A stretch of 64,000 nucleotides of DNA from NCBI RefSeq assembly GCF_003258365.1, contig NZ_QHKM01000001.1, positions 558,001 through 622,000 on the forward strand, read 5' to 3'. The notes below the pieces were generated by a model that had not been told where the DNA came from, did no database searches, and saw nothing but the letters and a program-made list of their open reading frames with translations. Below are positions 9,016 through 55,876 of this stretch, piece after piece (position 1 is the first letter of the stretch; every line of letters starts with the position of its first letter). The translations under genes were made by a program, and so were the position numbers. The stretch comes from Hymenobacter edaphi. GTDB lineage: Bacteria > Bacteroidota > Bacteroidia > Cytophagales > Hymenobacteraceae.

Positions 9016-12000
9016 TTACTGGTCGATGCGGAAGCCCAGGCCGAACTGGATCAGCGCAGCTTCCTCCACCGAGTGCTGCACCGATACCGACAGGGCGAAG
9101 GTTTCATACACCGGCGCGATGTAGAAGCCGCCGCCGTAGCCGCGGTGCCAACCGCCCGGCGCGTCGCCCTTGTAGTACACTTGGCCCTGGTCGTAGAAGC
9201 CGAACACGCCGTAGTAGAAGGGCAGGATGGAGGTGTTGGCGTAGCCCAGCGAGAGGCGCAGCTCCGTGTTCAGGTACAAGGAAGCGTCGCCGGTGAAGCG
9301 GTTGCGCACGTAGCCGCGCAGGCTCTGGCGCTGGCCCAGCTGGGTGAACTTGTAGAACGGAATTTCGTCGTCGGGGCCGTAGTTTTTGCCGCCGCCGCCC
9401 TTCACGGCCAAGGTTACCGGGATGCCCAGGCGGGCGGTGGCCAGGTACTCGGCAAAGGCTTCGGTGAGGCCGAAAGTGCGCTGCTGCTGATTCAGCTGGT
9501 GCCAGGTGGTGTGCTCCCCGTACAGGCGCACGCCCTTGCGGGCGAAGAGCTTCCGGTCCCGGAAGTCCAGGTCGACCACGGCCTTGCCGCCGAGCAGGCG
9601 CTGGAAATCGGTGTTGGGCACCAGGTCGGAGGGCGTGGGCTGGGCTTTCAGCTGGCCGATGTAGCTGCCCGCGGAAAAGTCGCTCTGGTACTGCTCGTAC
9701 ACCGGACCGATGCGCACCAGGCTCTTGCCGCGGAAGGCCCGCTCGAAGAAGGCTTCGGTCTGGTAGCCGCGGTACCGGGCGCGGTAGAACCGGTCGTCAT
9801 ACAGGTCGTCGTTCTTGCCGGTATTGTTGCCCAGCCCGAAGAAGTTGTAGAAGGGGAAGAAGTTGCCGTAGGTGGCGCGGGCGCCGAAGTCCCACTTGCC
9901 GATGAGGTAGCGCCAGCGCACGTTGCCGGTCAGCTGCCGGTTGCCGCCGGTGGTGTACTGCGCGTCGATGCCGTAGCGGACGCGGTAATCGGGCTTGCGG
10001 AAGCCCTGCTTCACCCAGTCAAAGCCCGCGGCCAGGCCGAAGCCGTCGTTCTGGTTGTAAATCAGGCCGCCGCGCGGGGCGTAGCCGTCGTACTCGAAGG
10101 CGTCGCGGTCGTAGCGGTTGATGCCCAGGGTAGTGGCGCGGCGGTCGGCGGTGCCGGGGCCGGCTTTCAGCTCGGTATTGGGCACGTCGTACACCTCGGT
10201 GCGGCCGCCCGTGGCGTTGTCGGCCACCACGTCGCCGCCCTCGCCGCCGATAATGCGCACGCGGATGCTGTTCTTGCCCTCCCCGCTGACGTTGAACACG
10301 TCCTTGCCGTCGAGACCGTAGAGGCGGATGTCGCGGGTTTCACCCTTCACGAAGGTGCGGTCGAAGAAGGGCTGGCCCTTGGCCGCGCCGTCGTCGTTTT
10401 TCTTGCTGACCTGCACGCGCACGTTGCCGTCGGGCAGGCGCTGCACGGTGAAGACCTCCGCCTTGTTGGAACCCACCACGTCCACGTCGCGGGCCAGCAT
10501 CAGGTAGTACTCGTCGATGGCCTGGGGTAGCTCCTGGATGCGGCTTTTCAGCTTGCGGTTGATGTCCTGGCCCGAAATGCCCTGGATTTCCTTGGGCAGC
10601 TGGGCCGTGGCCGAGTCGATGGCCGTGGGCGTGATGCGCCGCTGCAGGTACTGGCCGATCTGCTTCCAGTCTTCCCGCGTCAGGCTCTGGAGCAGGGCGC
10701 GGTCGAGGTGCCGGGCGGGCCAGTTCAGGCTTTCCAGGTCGTTGAACTTCAGCTGGAAATCCTCGATGCTGGGCACGGCCCACTCGCGGTTGGCAATCCA
10801 GGTCAGCGCCCCGTTCCAGAGCGTGAACGACTGGTCCCGGTCGCGGGGAATGGGCTGGAATACCGAGCCTTTGCCCTCCTTGTACTCGGCCCACTTCCAG
10901 TTGTCCTCGTGCTTGCCAAAGTCGGCCACCAGCATGTCGAAGGCGCGGGCGCGGCCCAGCTGCCGGGCGTCGACGCGGTTGTCGTGGTCCTTGTATAGCT
11001 GCCGGAACATGCTGAACGAGCGGCGCACGTTGTCGGCGCCGCCGAAGCCGGCAAGGTTGTCCTTTCGGTCCCAGGGGTCATCTTCCAGCGTGCCGAGCAG
11101 GCCGGCGTACCGCTCCCGGTAGGGGCCGAGCTGCTGGTTGTCGGGCAGCACGAACAGGCGCGGGCGGGCGTGCAGAATGTCGGTGCGGTCGAGCAGCGGG
11201 GAGATGACCAGGGCTGAGTAGGGGTGGGCCGTGGGCGTGATGTCGCGCAGAATGTCGGCCGCCACCGAGCCGCGCAGCTCCGGCGGCAGAATCTTGGTCA
11301 CGTCCTTATCGACCGAGCGGAAGGTGTACTCCGAGGAGTCGGCCGCAACCATCTTCAGCGAGGTGGTCTGGCGTCCGCCACCGCGGCCGGTGGGGCGCAG
11401 CCCGCCTTTTTCGGTGTTCAGGTCGAGCACCGGCACGGCCACCGGCTGCGTCCACGACGTGCGGTACACCGGCCCCACCATCGTTTTCTGCAGGCCGTGG
11501 GCGCGGTACTGCGGGCCGGGCGTCACGGTAGCCGTGGGGCCGCTGGGGGCGTCGGGCTTGGGCGCGGCCACGCCTCTCGGGGCCGCGGGGCAGTCGGGCA
11601 GGAAGGCGTTGGTGGGCACGTCCTGGCTAGCGGGCAGGCAGGCCGACTGAAACAGCGTGGCCGCAAAGGCCTCCTTCACCGCGTCATTGCTCTCAAAGCG
11701 CAGCATCACCGTCTTCACCGTACCGTCGGGGTAGTAGTCGAGGCGGGTATAGCCGGCGTCGGCTTCGTTGTAGAGCGAGCGGGCGTTGCTGCCCACCGGC
11801 TCGGTGTGGGCAAACGAGCCGCTGACGAGGTGGTAGTTTTTCTCGAATGGCGTGAGCTGCAGGCTGAAGTCGTGGGCGGCGGCGTAGATGACGCCGGGAT
11901 GCTCCTTCAGGGTGCTCAGCAGCGTTTTCTTGAACTCCTGGTAGCCCGGCGAAGCCATGTCGCGCGGGGTGCCCACGTTCTGCCGGTAAGCCGCGTTGAT

Positions 12001-12723
12001 GGTACCAAAGACCGGTGGCGAAAGGTGGCGCTTCAGGGGCTGAAAGCCGCCGTAGGTGCCGTTGCTGAGGGCCGGCTGGTGGCCCACCAGCAGCACGTTG
12101 CGCCCCTTGGTATCGTCGATGACGTCCTGAATCTGCTCCCGAAACTCCTCCGTCGACATGGTCTTGCAGTCGGTATCGGGAGCTTCGGGCCGGTCGAAGG
12201 GGTGCGAAAACCAGGGCGTGTTCAGCGCTACCAGGCGCACCAGCGGGGCCACGTCCACGATTTCGGGGCCGGGGCAGCCGTTGCTCGGGATGAAGGCGTT
12301 CTGCCCGCCCAGCTGCTGCTCGATGTATTTTTCCAGCCGCCGCACGCTTTTCTGCCCGTCGCGGCCGGAGTTGTTCCAGTCCTTGTCGCCGGGCACGAAG
12401 TAGATGCGGCCGCCCGGCAGGCCTTTCACCAGTGCCAGCAGCGCGTTGGCCCGGCTTTCCAGCCCGGCGCGGGTGGTGTCCTGCTTGTCGGACAGGCCCG
12501 CGTTGCCCACGATGTCGCCCAGGTGGACGACGGTAAAGGGCGTGGTTTCCTGCTCCAGGGTGCGGCGCAGGGCTTTCAGGCGGGCCTCGGGTACCGGGCC
12601 GGCGGTGTTGCCGAGCAGGTACACGTGGTGGGCCGGTGGGGTTGATTGGGCATGGGCGGGCAACGCTGCCGGCAGCAACAGACCCGCGGCAAGCAGCGGG
12701 CGGTAGAAATAGCTCATTGGCAA
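9016..12723 (-). CDS. Metallophosphoesterase-like / kinase-like / outer-membrane barrel fusion
   Basis: 1,235 residues with signal peptide (to about AHAQS). Residues ~30-330 resemble a calcineurin-like phosphoesterase (HLGDIVGNAG, VPGDKDW, LLVGHQP, AAAHDF), but the usual first GD motif reads LLGNTAG and the usual GNHD reads GDKD, so metal ligands are changed. A central region (~440-840) has a kinase-like pattern: ADFGKHEDNW followed by PRDRDQSF, reminiscent of atypical-kinase D...N and metal-binding loops (inference). The last ~400 residues alternate like a BamA/D15-type barrel and end in FGLGFRIDQ. Proteins of this overall type are common in Bacteroidota and of unknown function; periplasmic/outer-membrane location is expected. 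It overlaps nothing and lies 108 bp downstream of the sirtuin gene. Confidence 0.75.
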   Translation of the reverse strand: MPMSYFYRPLLAAGLLLPAALPAHAQSTPPAHHVYLLGNTAGPVPEARLKALRRTLEQETTPFTVVHLGDIVGNAGLSDKQDTTRAGLESRANALLALVKGLPGGRIYFVPGDKDWNNSGRDGQKSVRRLEKYIEQQLGGQNAFIPSNGCPGPEIVDVAPLVRLVALNTPWFSHPFDRPEAPDTDCKTMSTEEFREQIQDVIDDTKGRNVLLVGHQPALSNGTYGGFQPLKRHLSPPVFGTINAAYRQNVGTPRDMASPGYQEFKKTLLSTLKEHPGVIYAAAHDFSLQLTPFEKNYHLVSGSFAHTEPVGSNARSLYNEADAGYTRLDYYPDGTVKTVMLRFESNDAVKEAFAATLFQSACLPASQDVPTNAFLPDCPAAPRGVAAPKPDAPSGPTATVTPGPQYRAHGLQKTMVGPVYRTSWTQPVAVPVLDLNTEKGGLRPTGRGGGRQTTSLKMVAADSSEYTFRSVDKDVTKILPPELRGSVAADILRDITPTAHPYSALVISPLLDRTDILHARPRLFVLPDNQQLGPYRERYAGLLGTLEDDPWDRKDNLAGFGGADNVRRSFSMFRQLYKDHDNRVDARQLGRARAFDMLVADFGKHEDNWKWAEYKEGKGSVFQPIPRDRDQSFTLWNGALTWIANREWAVPSIEDFQLKFNDLESLNWPARHLDRALLQSLTREDWKQIGQYLQRRITPTAIDSATAQLPKEIQGISGQDINRKLKSRIQELPQAIDEYYLMLARDVDVVGSNKAEVFTVQRLPDGNVRVQVSKKNDDGAAKGQPFFDRTFVKGETRDIRLYGLDGKDVFNVSGEGKNSIRVRIIGGEGGDVVADNATGGRTEVYDVPNTELKAGPGTADRRATTLGINRYDRDAFEYDGYAPRGGLIYNQNDGFGLAAGFDWVKQGFRKPDYRVRYGIDAQYTTGGNRQLTGNVRWRYLIGKWDFGARATYGNFFPFYNFFGLGNNTGKNDDLYDDRFYRARYRGYQTEAFFERAFRGKSLVRIGPVYEQYQSDFSAGSYIGQLKAQPTPSDLVPNTDFQRLLGGKAVVDLDFRDRKLFARKGVRLYGEHTTWHQLNQQQRTFGLTEAFAEYLATARLGIPVTLAVKGGGGKNYGPDDEIPFYKFTQLGQRQSLRGYVRNRFTGDASLYLNTELRLSLGYANTSILPFYYGVFGFYDQGQVYYKGDAPGGWHRGYGGGFYIAPVYETFALSVSVQHSVEEAALIQFGLGFRIDQ

Positions 12724-52114: not shown

Positions 52115-52585
52115 ATGGCCGTCAACTATTATACCGCCGAAGGCTTGCAGAAGCTGAAGGACGAACTGCAGGATCTTAAAATCCGCGGTCGGGCCGAGGC
52201 AGCCCGCCAGCTGGCCGAAGCCCGCGACAAAGGTGACCTGAGCGAAAACGCCGAGTACGACGCGGCCAAGGAGTCGCAGGGCCACCTGGAGCTGAAAATC
52301 TCCAAGCTCGAAGAAATCATCGGCAACGCCCGCATCCTCGACGACAGCAACCTGGACAACAGCAAGGTGCTCATCATGAGCAAGGTGAAGCTGAAAAACC
52401 TGAAGAACAACATGGTGCTCGACTACACCCTGGTGGCCGAGGAAGAAGCCAACCTGGCCGCCGGCAAAATCTCGGTGAAGTCGCCCATCGGCAAGGGCCT
52501 GCTAGGCAAGTCGGCCGGCGACGTGGCCGAAATCACCGTGCCCGCCGGCAAGCTGCAGTTCGAAATCCTGGAAATCAGTCGGTAG
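52115..52585 (+). CDS. greA: Transcription elongation factor GreA
   Basis: 156 residues. GreA inserts its coiled coil into the RNA polymerase secondary channel to stimulate cleavage of backtracked RNA. The coiled-coil N-terminus (YYTAEGLQKLKDELQDLK) has the conserved acidic tip in GDLSENAEYDAAKE (Asp and Glu). The C-terminal FKBP-like domain shows KVLIMSKVKLKN and SPIGKGLLGKSAGDVAEITVPAGKLQFEIL (core SPIGKGLLGK). Upstream, a promoter and a terminator-like hairpin suggest attenuation. A hairpin terminator follows. Confidence 0.96.
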   Translation: MAVNYYTAEGLQKLKDELQDLKIRGRAEAARQLAEARDKGDLSENAEYDAAKESQGHLELKISKLEEIIGNARILDDSNLDNSKVLIMSKVKLKNLKNNMVLDYTLVAEEEANLAAGKISVKSPIGKGLLGKSAGDVAEITVPAGKLQFEILEISR

Positions 52586-52591
52586 GCGGGG

Positions 52592-52770
52592 AGATGGTGA
52601 GTAGTGAACTGGTGAGTTGACCATTACTGCTCTCCTGCGACATTGTAAAAAGGGCGGAGCTGTGGCTTCGCCCTTTTGCGTTTTGCCCCGTACTTTGACG
52701 ACCGGCCCAACCGGGTCGTCTGGGTGCCATCGGAACGGTACTCACCCTTTCACCACCTCACCACTTCACC
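52592..52770. repeat. Imperfect inverted arms flanking the greA terminator region
   Basis: GATGGTGAGTAGTGAACTGG near 52593 is an imperfect reverse complement of the CTCACCCTTTCACCACCTCA region at 52741-52770. Low-complexity GTGA/TCAC words, comparable in layout to the AT-rich arms at 459-537 and 41814-41920. Confidence 0.4.
52647..52677 (+). terminator. greA terminator
   Basis: AAAAGGGCGGAG/CTTCGCCCTTTT stem (one G-T) with loop CTGTGG, 60 nt after the greA stop. Confidence 0.75.
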
Positions 52771-52772
52771 GC

Positions 52773-53660
52773 ATGCCTTCCATCTTTTCCCGCATCGTGG
52801 CGGGTGAGCTGCCCGCCTACAAAGTGGCGGAAGACGAGCATCACCTGGCCTTTCTCGACATCACGCCGCTGGTGGAGGGCCACACGCTGGTCATTCCGAA
52901 AAAGGAAGTTGATTACATCTTCGACCTGCCCCCAGCCGAGCTGGCGGCGCTGCACCAGTTTGCCCAGCGCGTGGCCAAAGGGGTGAAAGCCGCCGTGCCC
53001 TGCAAGCGCATCGGGGTGGCCGTAATCGGGCTGGAGGTACCGCACGCGCACATTCACCTGATTCCGATGAAGCAGGTGGCGGATATGAACTTTGCCAACC
53101 CCAAAATCAAGGTGGCGGAGGAGCGCATGCAGGAGCTAGCCGCCGCCATTGCCGCTAAGGTGCCCGGCGCCGACGGCAGTCCGGCCGCCAAAACGGCCGA
53201 AAAGCCCCTGGAAAGCAAAGCCGCGCGCGAAACCGCCGCTTCCAACGACGCCAGGGACGCCGGCCCCGCCGACGCCGCGCTCGATCAGCTGCGCCAACTC
53301 ACCGAAGGCCTGTACTTCGTCAGCGAATCGGATGCGCCGCTGACGGTGGTAAGCTACCAGGCCCCGAGCGGGGCGCTGGACAGCAAGGAGCTGCTGAAGC
53401 TGCTCAACCAACCCGCCGACACGCCCGTGCAGGTGCAGGAGCTGACGCATTTTCTGCGCAACCACACCGCCGACGACGGCGTGCTCGGCAATGTGGACCT
53501 GGCCAACCGCTACAAAGCCCTGCAGATGTTCCTGAAGCAGGAGCTGGAGGACGTGCAAGTGTACCGCGTGGGCTCAGGCCCGCAGCTGGAGGCCTACGCC
53601 CTGGGCAAAACCAGCAGCGGCAAGCTGGCCGGCTTCAAAACCACGCTCGTCGAAACCTGA
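52773..53660 (+). CDS. HIT-domain hydrolase fused to a NuiA-type nuclease-inhibitor domain
   Basis: 295 residues from the ATG at 52773. Residues 1-~125 form a HIT domain of the Hint/HinT type (MPSIFSRIVAGELPAYKVAEDE; catalytic HAHIHL near 92-97), which hydrolyses nucleoside phosphoramidates or dinucleotides. An Ala/Lys-rich linker (about 127-172) follows. The C-terminal ~125 residues resemble NuiA, the Anabaena inhibitor of the nuclease NucA: LRQLTEGLYFVSESDAPLTV, ELTHFLRNHT, VQVYRVG and AGFKTTLVET at the end, equivalent to the NuiA ending in VVET. The fusion is unusual. It lies about 740 bp from a NucA-family nuclease gene, so an inhibitor role is plausible (inference). Confidence 0.85.
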   Translation: MPSIFSRIVAGELPAYKVAEDEHHLAFLDITPLVEGHTLVIPKKEVDYIFDLPPAELAALHQFAQRVAKGVKAAVPCKRIGVAVIGLEVPHAHIHLIPMKQVADMNFANPKIKVAEERMQELAAAIAAKVPGADGSPAAKTAEKPLESKAARETAASNDARDAGPADAALDQLRQLTEGLYFVSESDAPLTVVSYQAPSGALDSKELLKLLNQPADTPVQVQELTHFLRNHTADDGVLGNVDLANRYKALQMFLKQELEDVQVYRVGSGPQLEAYALGKTSSGKLAGFKTTLVET

Positions 53661-53910
53661 TTTGGGTTGCTGCGGAACCGCGCCAGGCCCCGGTTTGCCA
53701 GCTTGCTGGCGGGCCGGGGCCTGACTGTGTCCGGCGGCTTGGCGGCCCGCGCGCCCGGAGGCCCCGCACACTGTCGGCTGGGGGTGCGTACGAGCGCGGC
53801 GTCACCGCGACTTGCTCAGTTAGGTATAATTATTGACGGAATAATGCACGCGCAGCAGGTGTTTTACGTTACAGGCTGGCATGTTCTACCCACTTATTAC
53901 CCCCCGCATT

Positions 53911-54324
53911 ATGTTCAAGCAGGTATTTGGCGTGCTGCTGGCCGCCCTTGTAAGCCACGGGGCCTGGGCCCAGGCCGCCCCCACCCAGCCAGTACTGGCC
54001 ACCGCCTCCGGCGGGCCGGTAGTCCCGGCGCCGGCCGCTCCCAACGTCGAAGCGTATGTGCGCACCGCTACCACGACCAAGGGCAGCGAGCTGGACTTCG
54101 ACAAAATGCTGGCGACTAAGAAGCAGACGGTGTTTCTGCACAACGGCAGTATGTACAGCAAGCGCGAATACGCCTTGGTGCTCTGGGGGCTGCGCGTGAA
54201 AGCCCTGGGCGTCGCATCGGCCGAGCGGGCCTGCGCCCTTTACGCGGGCGCCACCAACCGCAGCCTGAGCCCCGCCGAAAAGCAGGCCCTGACCGACGGC
54301 TTCGAGAGCGGCACCCCGGAATAA
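53911..54324 (+). CDS. Small secreted hypothetical protein
   Basis: 137 residues from the ATG at 53911, giving signal peptide MFKQVFGVLLAALVSHGAWA and a mature start QAAPTQ; an ATG at 53881 is open but adds ten residues before the signal. After an Ala/Pro-rich segment there is a ~85-residue domain (SELDFDKMLATKKQTVFLHNG, YSKREYALVLWGLRVKALG, ACALYAGATNRSLSPAEK). I do not recognise a family. It lies between the HIT-NuiA gene (same strand) and the convergent nuclease gene, with a perfect 28-bp hairpin downstream. Confidence 0.6.
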   Translation: MFKQVFGVLLAALVSHGAWAQAAPTQPVLATASGGPVVPAPAAPNVEAYVRTATTTKGSELDFDKMLATKKQTVFLHNGSMYSKREYALVLWGLRVKALGVASAERACALYAGATNRSLSPAEKQALTDGFESGTPE

Positions 54325-54333
54325 GCCGCTGCC

Positions 54334-54396
54334 CGGCCCTTGCAGCAACACGCCCGCCCCGGCAATGTCGGGGCGGGCGTGTTGCTGCAAGGGCCG
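54334..54396. terminator. Perfect 28-bp hairpin between convergent genes
   Basis: Arms 54334-54361 and 54369-54396 are exact reverse complements (begin CGGCCCTTGCAGCAACACGC), loop GCAATGT. No T tract follows on either strand, so termination is likely but not certain. Confidence 0.65.
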
Positions 54397-54400
54397 GCCG

Positions 54401-55876
54401 TCAGCGCGTAGGGCCGGCGTCGACGCGGGCTTCCAGCTGGGCCTGGGTTTCGACGGGCAGCAGGCTGAGCAGGTCGAGGCCGGTGGCGGCTTCGATGGCG
54501 TCGACGGAGGTGCGGTACTTGGCCCAGTCGGGGTCCACGCTGTTGTCGTTGGGCGTGTCGATGGCAATGAGGCGGGCCTGGCCGCCGGCAATGCGCTGCA
54601 GGTCGCCGGCGCCGTTGGGCAGCACCACCAGCACTTTCCACACGCGCTTGGGCACGGTCACGTGGCCGTTGTCGAGGGTTTGGACGAGGCCGCTGGAGCC
54701 GGTGCCGCCGCGGCCGTAGCTGCCCATCAGCACGTACACTTCGTGGCCGGCCTGCACCAGGTCGCGCGAGTAGTCTTCGAGGTGATTCCAGGTGCGCTGG
54801 TTGTTCATGGGCGCCTGCGGAATCATGTTGGTCATCAGGAAGGTGGCCGAATTGTCGTCCAGCGTCAGGCTGCGGTCGGCGGAGGGGCAGTTGTGGCCCC
54901 GGTCGAAGCCCGAGCCGGAGTAGGAGCGGGGCGTAACCTGATACCAGCCCCGGGGCAGGGCCGGGTCGGGGCGGAAGTCGTCCTGGCGCGGGGCCGAGCC
55001 CAGCCAGGCCCGGCTCAGGTGCCACGCCACCCAGTTGGGCGTGCCCCGGTCGCGGGAGTAGCTCAGCGTGTACTGAGGCTTCACCATCAGGTAGTTATTG
55101 GGCGACTTATCAGGCCTGCCGGTGGCGCCGCTGGGGTTGCCGAGGCCGAGCGGGTCATCCTGCCCCGCCGGGCCCTGCGGGCGGGTCTCGCCCCCCAGCC
55201 CTCGGTCCGGCGGAGAGGGGGCGCCTGACGATTTGGGGGCCGCGGCGGTGGGCGTTTTGGCGCCGTTGCCGGCCACGGCGGGCGGGGTGCCGCCCTGGTA
55301 GGGCTCCACGGAAAAGTCGTCGAGGTTCAGCCGGTCGTCGCCGCCATCGAGCTTGCGGATTTCCAGGCGCAGCGGGCCGGGGCGGTTCACCACGATGGTG
55401 GCGGGCAGGCCGGCGCCCTCCACCTTGATTTCGCTGCCCACGGGCTGCCAGCTGCGGCCGCGGTCGGCAGAGCCCCACAGCTGCCAGCGCACGGCGCCGT
55501 CCTTGCCGTAGCTGGCGTGGAAGACGCGCACCCGGCCGGCGCCGGCGGGCAGGTCGAAGCGCATTTGGGCGCGGCCCTTGCCGCGCAGGCGCAGGGCCTT
55601 CTGGCCGCGGCGGTGGTCCTGCTCGCTGCTGCCGATCAGGGCGTCGTCGAGCAGCCAGCGGCCGGAGGGCAGGGTTTCTTCGGCGGCGGCGTAGGAGCCC
55701 TTGCTGCCGGTTTCGAAGTCTTCGGTGACGGTCTTGCCGGCTTGCAGCACCACGGCCTCGGCGCCGGGGGCAGCGGTAGGGGCTTGGCGGGCTTCGTCGG
55801 CGCTGCGCTGGAAGCAGGCGGCCAGGGCGCCGGTCAGCAGCAGGGTGGAAACAAGGGGCGGGGTAGCGAGGCGCAT
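54401..55876 (-). CDS. Secreted lipoprotein DNA/RNA non-specific endonuclease (NucA/DRGH family)
   Basis: 491 residues from the ATG at 55876. Lipoprotein signal (MRLATPPLVSTLLLTGALAAC, lipobox Cys at 21). Residues ~45-195 form a beta-sandwich region (VTEDFETGSKGSYAAAEETL core EDFETG; LNLDDFSVEPY). A Pro/Gly/Ala linker leads to the nuclease domain (about 270-490). Its active site is FDRGHNCPSADR (about 323-334) with the catalytic His and the Mg-coordinating Asn further on in FLMTNMIPQ...NQRTWNHLE, as in NucA and Serratia nuclease. YVLMGSYG and PKRVWKVLVVLP are also typical. It is probably at the cell surface for nucleic-acid degradation. A NuiA-like inhibitor domain is encoded nearby. Confidence 0.9.
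   Translation of the reverse strand: MRLATPPLVSTLLLTGALAACFQRSADEARQAPTAAPGAEAVVLQAGKTVTEDFETGSKGSYAAAEETLPSGRWLLDDALIGSSEQDHRRGQKALRLRGKGRAQMRFDLPAGAGRVRVFHASYGKDGAVRWQLWGSADRGRSWQPVGSEIKVEGAGLPATIVVNRPGPLRLEIRKLDGGDDRLNLDDFSVEPYQGGTPPAVAGNGAKTPTAAAPKSSGAPSPPDRGLGGETRPQGPAGQDDPLGLGNPSGATGRPDKSPNNYLMVKPQYTLSYSRDRGTPNWVAWHLSRAWLGSAPRQDDFRPDPALPRGWYQVTPRSYSGSGFDRGHNCPSADRSLTLDDNSATFLMTNMIPQAPMNNQRTWNHLEDYSRDLVQAGHEVYVLMGSYGRGGTGSSGLVQTLDNGHVTVPKRVWKVLVVLPNGAGDLQRIAGGQARLIAIDTPNDNSVDPDWAKYRTSVDAIEAATGLDLLSLLPVETQAQLEARVDAGPTR

Follow-up and report, generated by a model that had tools for sequence, protein, structure and literature searches.

A HIT–NuiA fusion near a NucA-type lipoprotein nuclease in Hymenobacter edaphi: a probable immunity protein against exported nucleases

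The locus

NuiA, an inhibitor of the nuclease NucA, is best known from Anabaena. The present study concerns a gene of Hymenobacter edaphi whose product joins a HIT domain to a NuiA homologue, together with a convergent neighbouring gene for a nuclease of the NucA type. Both lie in a stretch of 64,000 nucleotides (contig NZ_QHKM01000001.1, positions 558,001 to 622,000; hereafter the window), the numbering of which is used throughout.

The fusion gene (52773–53660, plus strand) encodes a protein of 295 residues, the composition of which is evident from profile, PDB-sequence and structure matches. Its HIT domain (residues 11–101, 52803–53075, plus strand) matches Pfam entry PF01230 with 69.3 bits against a cut-off of 21.5 and has an intact HxHxHxx motif in the form HAHIHLI. 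The linker (residues 139–163, 53187–53261, plus strand) differs in length among relatives and, in an AlphaFold2 model, has for the most part a predicted local distance difference test (pLDDT) score below 50. The NuiA domain (residues 169–295, 53277–53657, plus strand) ends in a conserved Glu-Thr pair and matches PF07924 over essentially the whole model (positions 3–130 of 130) with 119 bits and an E-value of 2.2e-34, the cut-off being 22.1 bits. Among PDB sequences only NuiA entries (2o3b_B and 1j57/1ktu) match this domain at E-values up to 0.001. The AlphaFold2 model, made from a 30-row alignment, has a mean pLDDT of 83 and a predicted template modelling score (pTM) of 0.51. When it was submitted to Foldseek the top match was 2o3b_B, the NuiA chain of the NucA complex (E-value 2.8e-11, template modelling score 0.88 by target length), and the HIT proteins 7mqw and 3lb5 ranked next, as would be expected of a HIT fold; the structural match 7mqw shares 38% identity with the HIT domain. 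An earlier note on this DNA had read the C-terminal domain as NuiA fused to HIT, and these matches bear it out. Since the HIT part scores only 28 bits against the cut-off of 206 for the NCBIfam equivalog of HINT purine nucleoside phosphoramidase, the protein can be filed merely as a HIT protein, and phosphoramidate hydrolysis by this domain would be a guess at the level of the family. The genome (G000) has one PF01230 match, one NuiA match and three Endonuclease_NS matches, so that the sole HIT protein detected in the genome with PF01230 is the one that carries the inhibitor.

The nuclease gene (54401–55876, minus strand) encodes 491 residues with the catalytic domain at approximately residues 243–486. 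The product matches Endonuclease_NS (PF01223) with 177 bits against a cut-off of 23, Anabaena NucA ranks first among its PDB matches (E-value about 1e-76), and both a lipobox (LAAC) and the DRGH active-site motif are present. The nearby NucA-family nuclease of the earlier note is thereby confirmed as a predicted lipoprotein of the NucA branch, with putative export, surface exposure and activity. No signal peptide is seen by eye in the fused proteins, which start with the HIT domain; taken with the lipobox of the nuclease, this points to a cytosolic inhibitor and an exported nuclease.

Key residues of the inhibitor

According to the relevant part of PMC5758888, Anabaena NuiA is a competitive inhibitor whose binding overlaps the DNA site of the nuclease. 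It is also a very tight one, with a pKd of 11.49 quoted in a passage of PMC5374557; the same passage gives a D121–E24 contact at the interface, although there D121 is assigned to NuiA and E24 to NucA. The alignments place the equivalents of Glu24 and Thr135 of Anabaena NuiA at Glu185 and Thr295 of the fusion. These two residues are said to sit at the metal of the nuclease in the Anabaena complex, reportedly in work of Ghosh and colleagues from 2007. Their equivalents are invariant in two alignments, one of 19 rows covering diverse NuiA sequences (A1) and one of 30 rows (A3), both assembled without the divergent protein of locus L105 discussed below. Of 76 NuiA open reading frames (ORFs), 75 end in Thr and one (L082) in Asn, and the Glu24 equivalent is kept in 27 of 28 fused proteins. 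For four pairs of sequences, the ratio of non-synonymous to synonymous substitution rates (dN/dS) is 0.13–0.35 for the NuiA domain against 0.05–0.07 for HIT. Thus the NuiA domain evolves faster than the HIT domain, yet without signs of decay.

Distribution and linkage

Two genome samples were used, of 200 genomes from the family and 296 from the phylum. Loci of up to 20 kb were then compared within the family: from all eight genomes of the genus of the window genome (g1), from 20 genomes of its sister genus (g2), and from 32 places with 33 NuiA genes in three other genera (g141, g142 and g144), those outside g1 being chosen among the matches listed. A separate scan of named genomes gave 53 loci, some of them ended by contig ends and at least six apparently from the same assemblies as other sampled loci. 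In that scan Hymenobacter wooponensis has a fused gene and, in the NuiA tree described below, takes its place among the g2 rows of the fused clade, so that g2 would be Hymenobacter or something close to it.

All 28 loci of g1 and g2 (eight and 20, respectively) encode HIT and NuiA in a single ORF, which is the case for none of the 33 NuiA genes of the other three genera. The NuiA frames of g1 span 294–352 residues in all eight genomes, and the HxHxH motif is intact in every one of the 28 fused loci. The nuclease gene is convergent in all eight g1 loci, lying 0.6–3.1 kb downstream of the fusion, and in 18 of the 20 g2 loci, at 1.2–6.5 kb; in a further g2 genome (G166) an extended stretch shows it, again convergent, some 10.3 kb away, bringing g2 to 19 of 20. 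Where nuiA is unfused it is typically closer, 33–740 nt from nucA in 16 of 20 cases in g142, 12 of 12 in g144 and none of one in g141 (28 of 33). The neighbourhood of inhibitor and nuclease genes is conserved in fused and unfused genera, in support of the self-protection that the earlier note had suggested.

The linked nucleases of the fused clade show a variant of the active site. DRGH is replaced by DKGH in four of the eight g1 loci (L055, L057, L058 and L060) and in 16 of 18 g2 loci, while DRGH is retained in the 27 aligned nucleases of g142 and g144 and in both other copies in G000. A first count, in which these same 16 and four loci had no RGH, raised the idea of a dead linked nuclease; this was discarded when alignment revealed a change of Arg to Lys alone, with the His kept. 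The DKGH variant could be matched to the fused inhibitor.

Co-occurrence was assessed at the level of whole genomes, with p-values that ignore shared ancestry. NuiA is found in 197 of the 200 family genomes, Endonuclease_NS in 192 and HIT in all 200, and each of the three genomes that lack NuiA is also one of the eight that lack the nuclease (p = 4e-5). In the phylum sample Endonuclease_NS is present in 18 of 18 NuiA-bearing genomes compared with 105 of 296 overall (hypergeometric p = 2.9e-9). In the scan of named genomes a nucA match accompanies 41 of the 53 NuiA loci; 23 of the 41 are cyanobacterial and all of those are convergent. Two of the 53 loci are fused to HIT and one has an overlapping HIT gene. 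Fusions of NuiA to other kinds of domain were considered for L158, L165, L173 and L180, but their long frames look by eye like out-of-frame extensions, no domain search having been made. In L158, an actinomycetotal NuiA, a hydrophobic, signal-like stretch is seen by eye just ahead of the domain and would fit an exported inhibitor.

Origin of the Hymenobacter-type fusion

In the window the gene directly 5′ of the fusion is greA (52115–52585, plus strand), and the same is true of the HIT gene in every fused and unfused locus examined. In the genera with unfused nuiA, 12 of 12 loci (chosen among the matches listed) have a separate HIT gene immediately after greA, with 5–26 nt from one matched domain to the next, and eight of the 12 share the window's gene order pepA-ksgA-2HDH-greA-HIT. 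Since HIT follows greA in the unfused genera too, the HIT gene probably kept its position and acquired nuiA at its 3′ end. The gap from greA to the fused gene is 140–209 nt in all 28 fused loci.

The NuiA tree (120 rows, a large number for its 127 columns, and with some long branches) places the fused Hymenobacter-type proteins on a single branch (support 100/99) with unfused family members as neighbours (97/93). It leaves out 10 of 54 extra loci that are broken, cut or likely duplicates (L130, L133, L135, L141, L149, L154, L161, L170, L180 and L183). We would place the origin of the fusion in the common ancestor of the two Hymenobacter-like genera, where a nuiA gene would have arrived behind the housekeeping greA-HIT pair and been fused in frame onto the 3′ terminus of HIT, a convergent nuclease gene lying downstream.

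A second fusion

A further set of fused proteins comes from the group f28, apparently the Thermochlorobacteriaceae, in which NuiA frames of 300–352 residues occur in three of eight NuiA-bearing genomes, all of genus g89; one of these three genomes (G494) has 13% contamination. The N-terminal part of these proteins is a HIT protein of a different branch than the HIT of the window. In L131, the locus used for this comparison and a named match from Candidatus Thermochlorobacter aerophilum, its best PDB matches are Ap4A phosphorylases (3ano and 6af2) and its best NCBIfam match is an ATP adenylyltransferase model (165 bits, below the cut-off of 290). In another genome of the group (G133, locus L115), HIT and nuiA are separate genes that share an ATGA overlap on the minus strand at about 10190–10193, which likely represents a step preceding fusion; no such HIT gene was seen in the other four f28 loci examined. 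In locus L117 an unfused nuiA is followed about 1.8 kb downstream by an Ap4A-phosphorylase-like HIT gene of the same orientation (12061–12441), and none was seen near nuiA in L118 of the same genus.

Forcing the two sets of fused NuiA domains together was rejected by the approximately unbiased (AU) test (p = 0.005), in which the fusion labels were fixed before tree building and the joint test was run after the tree had been seen. Because a single origin is rejected and the HIT parts are of two branches, HIT seems to have been recruited twice, and the HIT–NuiA fusion thus appears to have arisen at least twice.

Other elements of the locus

Between the fusion and the nuclease lies a gene for a small secreted protein of 137 residues (53911–54324, plus strand), or 147 if started from the upstream ATG at 53881. 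Neither Pfam nor NCBIfam gives a match for it at E-values up to 0.1. The earlier note had thought that it could belong to the same system as its neighbours, and indeed it sits between fusion and nuclease in all eight g1 genomes; elsewhere it is nearly absent, with a weak match in one of 52 other family genomes (nine of the 60 examined in all). This near-restriction to one genus argues against its being a general part of the system, and it probably stands outside it.

Downstream of greA, a hairpin (52636–52690, plus strand; fold z-score −3.8) is a possible greA terminator, although it is absent from the output of a scan for consensus terminators. A scan for sigma-70 promoters found none for the fusion. 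In 14 of the 28 fused loci the stretch from greA to HIT contains the motif TACTTTG, which resembles a Bacteroidota −7 element and would be a candidate promoter element. Between the genes for the small secreted protein and the nuclease, an inverted repeat of 32 bases, 97% complementary and with a gap of one base, occupies 54333–54397; it folds with a z-score of −11.3 and is probably a two-way terminator.

Interpretation

The domain matches, the linkage, the co-occurrence, the conserved key residues and the second fusion together support self-protection: on this evidence HIT–NuiA is most probably a cytosolic immunity protein that counters the nucleases exported by the cell itself and has a housekeeping HIT protein as its carrier. 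Its NuiA domain would bind and block a NucA-type nuclease that has folded in the cytoplasm before export, with the conserved Glu and the protein's own free C-terminal carboxylate, that of Thr, placed at the metal site of the nuclease as is reported for Anabaena. NuiA would then have to be the C-terminal partner, its last residue needing to be free, and this may be why it is C-terminal in both fusions. HIT proteins are dimers, so the HIT part, with its catalytic motif intact, may act as a carrier that is made at a steady rate and is probably dimeric, in which case the inhibitor may be bivalent. A free NuiA made from an internal ATG start was considered and set aside, as the linker has an ATG in just three of the 28 fused ORFs; GTG is found in the linker segment of 25 and TTG in 11, and a non-ATG internal start may yield free NuiA.

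Several observations weigh against self-protection as set out above. One g2 genome (G370, locus L105) keeps the fusion with no nuclease in about 10 kb upstream and 29 kb downstream, and it is here that the key Glu is replaced by Asp; three nucleases are encoded elsewhere in that genome. The roles given to Glu24 and Thr135 are carried over from what is reported for Anabaena NuiA. Among the 28 linked unfused loci, two (L066 and L071) have nucA split over two frames. Outside the family, no nuclease lies in the stretch around 14 of 15 NuiA loci, including all those of Thermochlorobacteriaceae, although every one of the genomes concerned carries a nuclease somewhere. Finally, the upstream pepA-ksgA-2HDH-greA region is itself syntenic, so the linkage of nuiA and nucA could be inherited gene order. 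The split frames themselves (3649–4388 in L066 and 10245–10986 in L071) reflect either a disrupted gene or an error in sequencing; the adjacent unfused nuiA is intact in both.

If self-protection is accepted, the question becomes what HIT contributes. It is quite conceivable, though short of an even chance, that the fusion is neutral, with HIT and NuiA acting separately and HIT providing only expression. The variable, poorly modelled linkers are in keeping with this, as is the occurrence of each domain alone in relatives, and with a pTM of 0.51 the model lends no support to a fixed interface between them. Neutrality sits less easily with two separate origins that took HIT proteins of two branches, and with retention of the fusion in all 28 loci examined. 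Similarly, the wider gap behind greA in the fused clade suggests separate control, contrary to an expression-only role.

More tentatively, HIT may take part in protection, either through dimerisation that makes a bivalent, tighter inhibitor, or through nucleotide binding that modulates inhibition or deals with nucleotides that the nuclease releases. The double recruitment of HIT and the universally intact catalytic motif would be natural consequences of such a role; nevertheless, with no NuiA gene fused in the three other family genera and so few fused or overlapping in the named genomes, most NuiA genes have no HIT domain, and HIT is not needed for a NuiA gene to be retained. The two separate fusions favour some role for HIT, though two events are few. 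A broader version, in which HIT enzymes and NucA inhibitors form a functional module, HIT proteins of two branches having each been taken up for their sensing or handling of nucleotides so that protection is tuned to the nucleotide state of the cell, we regard as rather unlikely. That the NuiA domain targets foreign nucleases, of competitors or phages, is improbable: five of the 197 NuiA-bearing family genomes (G338, G383, G393, G423 and G480) do have no detected Endonuclease_NS gene, which also counts against self-protection, but linkage and co-occurrence both tie NuiA to the cell's own nucleases.

Relation to known systems and significance

The closest known system is the NucA–NuiA pair of Anabaena (2o3b, 1j57 and 1ktu), with a homologous nuclease and a homologous inhibitor that also ends in Glu-Thr. 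In the Nostoc loci of the scan of named genomes that have both genes, these are close together and, like the pair in the window, convergent. Unlike the Anabaena inhibitor, that of the window is fused to a HIT domain; its nuclease is a longer, lipoprotein form with about 240 N-terminal residues beyond the match to NucA; and inhibitor and nuclease genes of the fused clade are 0.6–10 kb apart. On the HIT side, the structures 7mqw and 3p0t and the unfused, greA-linked HIT proteins of the family are the relevant comparisons for domain, motif and place behind greA, to which the window protein adds a linker and an inhibitor domain. The Ap4A phosphorylase-type HIT proteins (3ano and 6af2) represent a different branch and are the nearest PDB relatives of the HIT part that in Thermochlorobacteriaceae, too, is fused to NuiA. 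Functional parallels, with no claim of sequence relationship, are offered by the immunity proteins of nuclease colicins and by Nin of Bacillus subtilis, in the part of PMC5758888 that deals with it, each an inhibitor of an exported nuclease.

The earlier note knew of no described HIT–NuiA fusion. Our searches of open-licence publications likewise brought up no paper describing one, nor any on NuiA in Hymenobacter, and as far as these searches show the fusion is undescribed.

To our knowledge, the role of the HIT superfamily in bacteria is unclear. It is here that the finding may be of most value, for an inhibitor carried by nearly every sampled genome of one family appears to have been joined twice to a HIT protein. 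If HIT matters for protection, these fusions would open a direct route to the function of such HIT proteins; if it does not, they would be a clean case of repeated fusion fixing immunity to a housekeeping gene.

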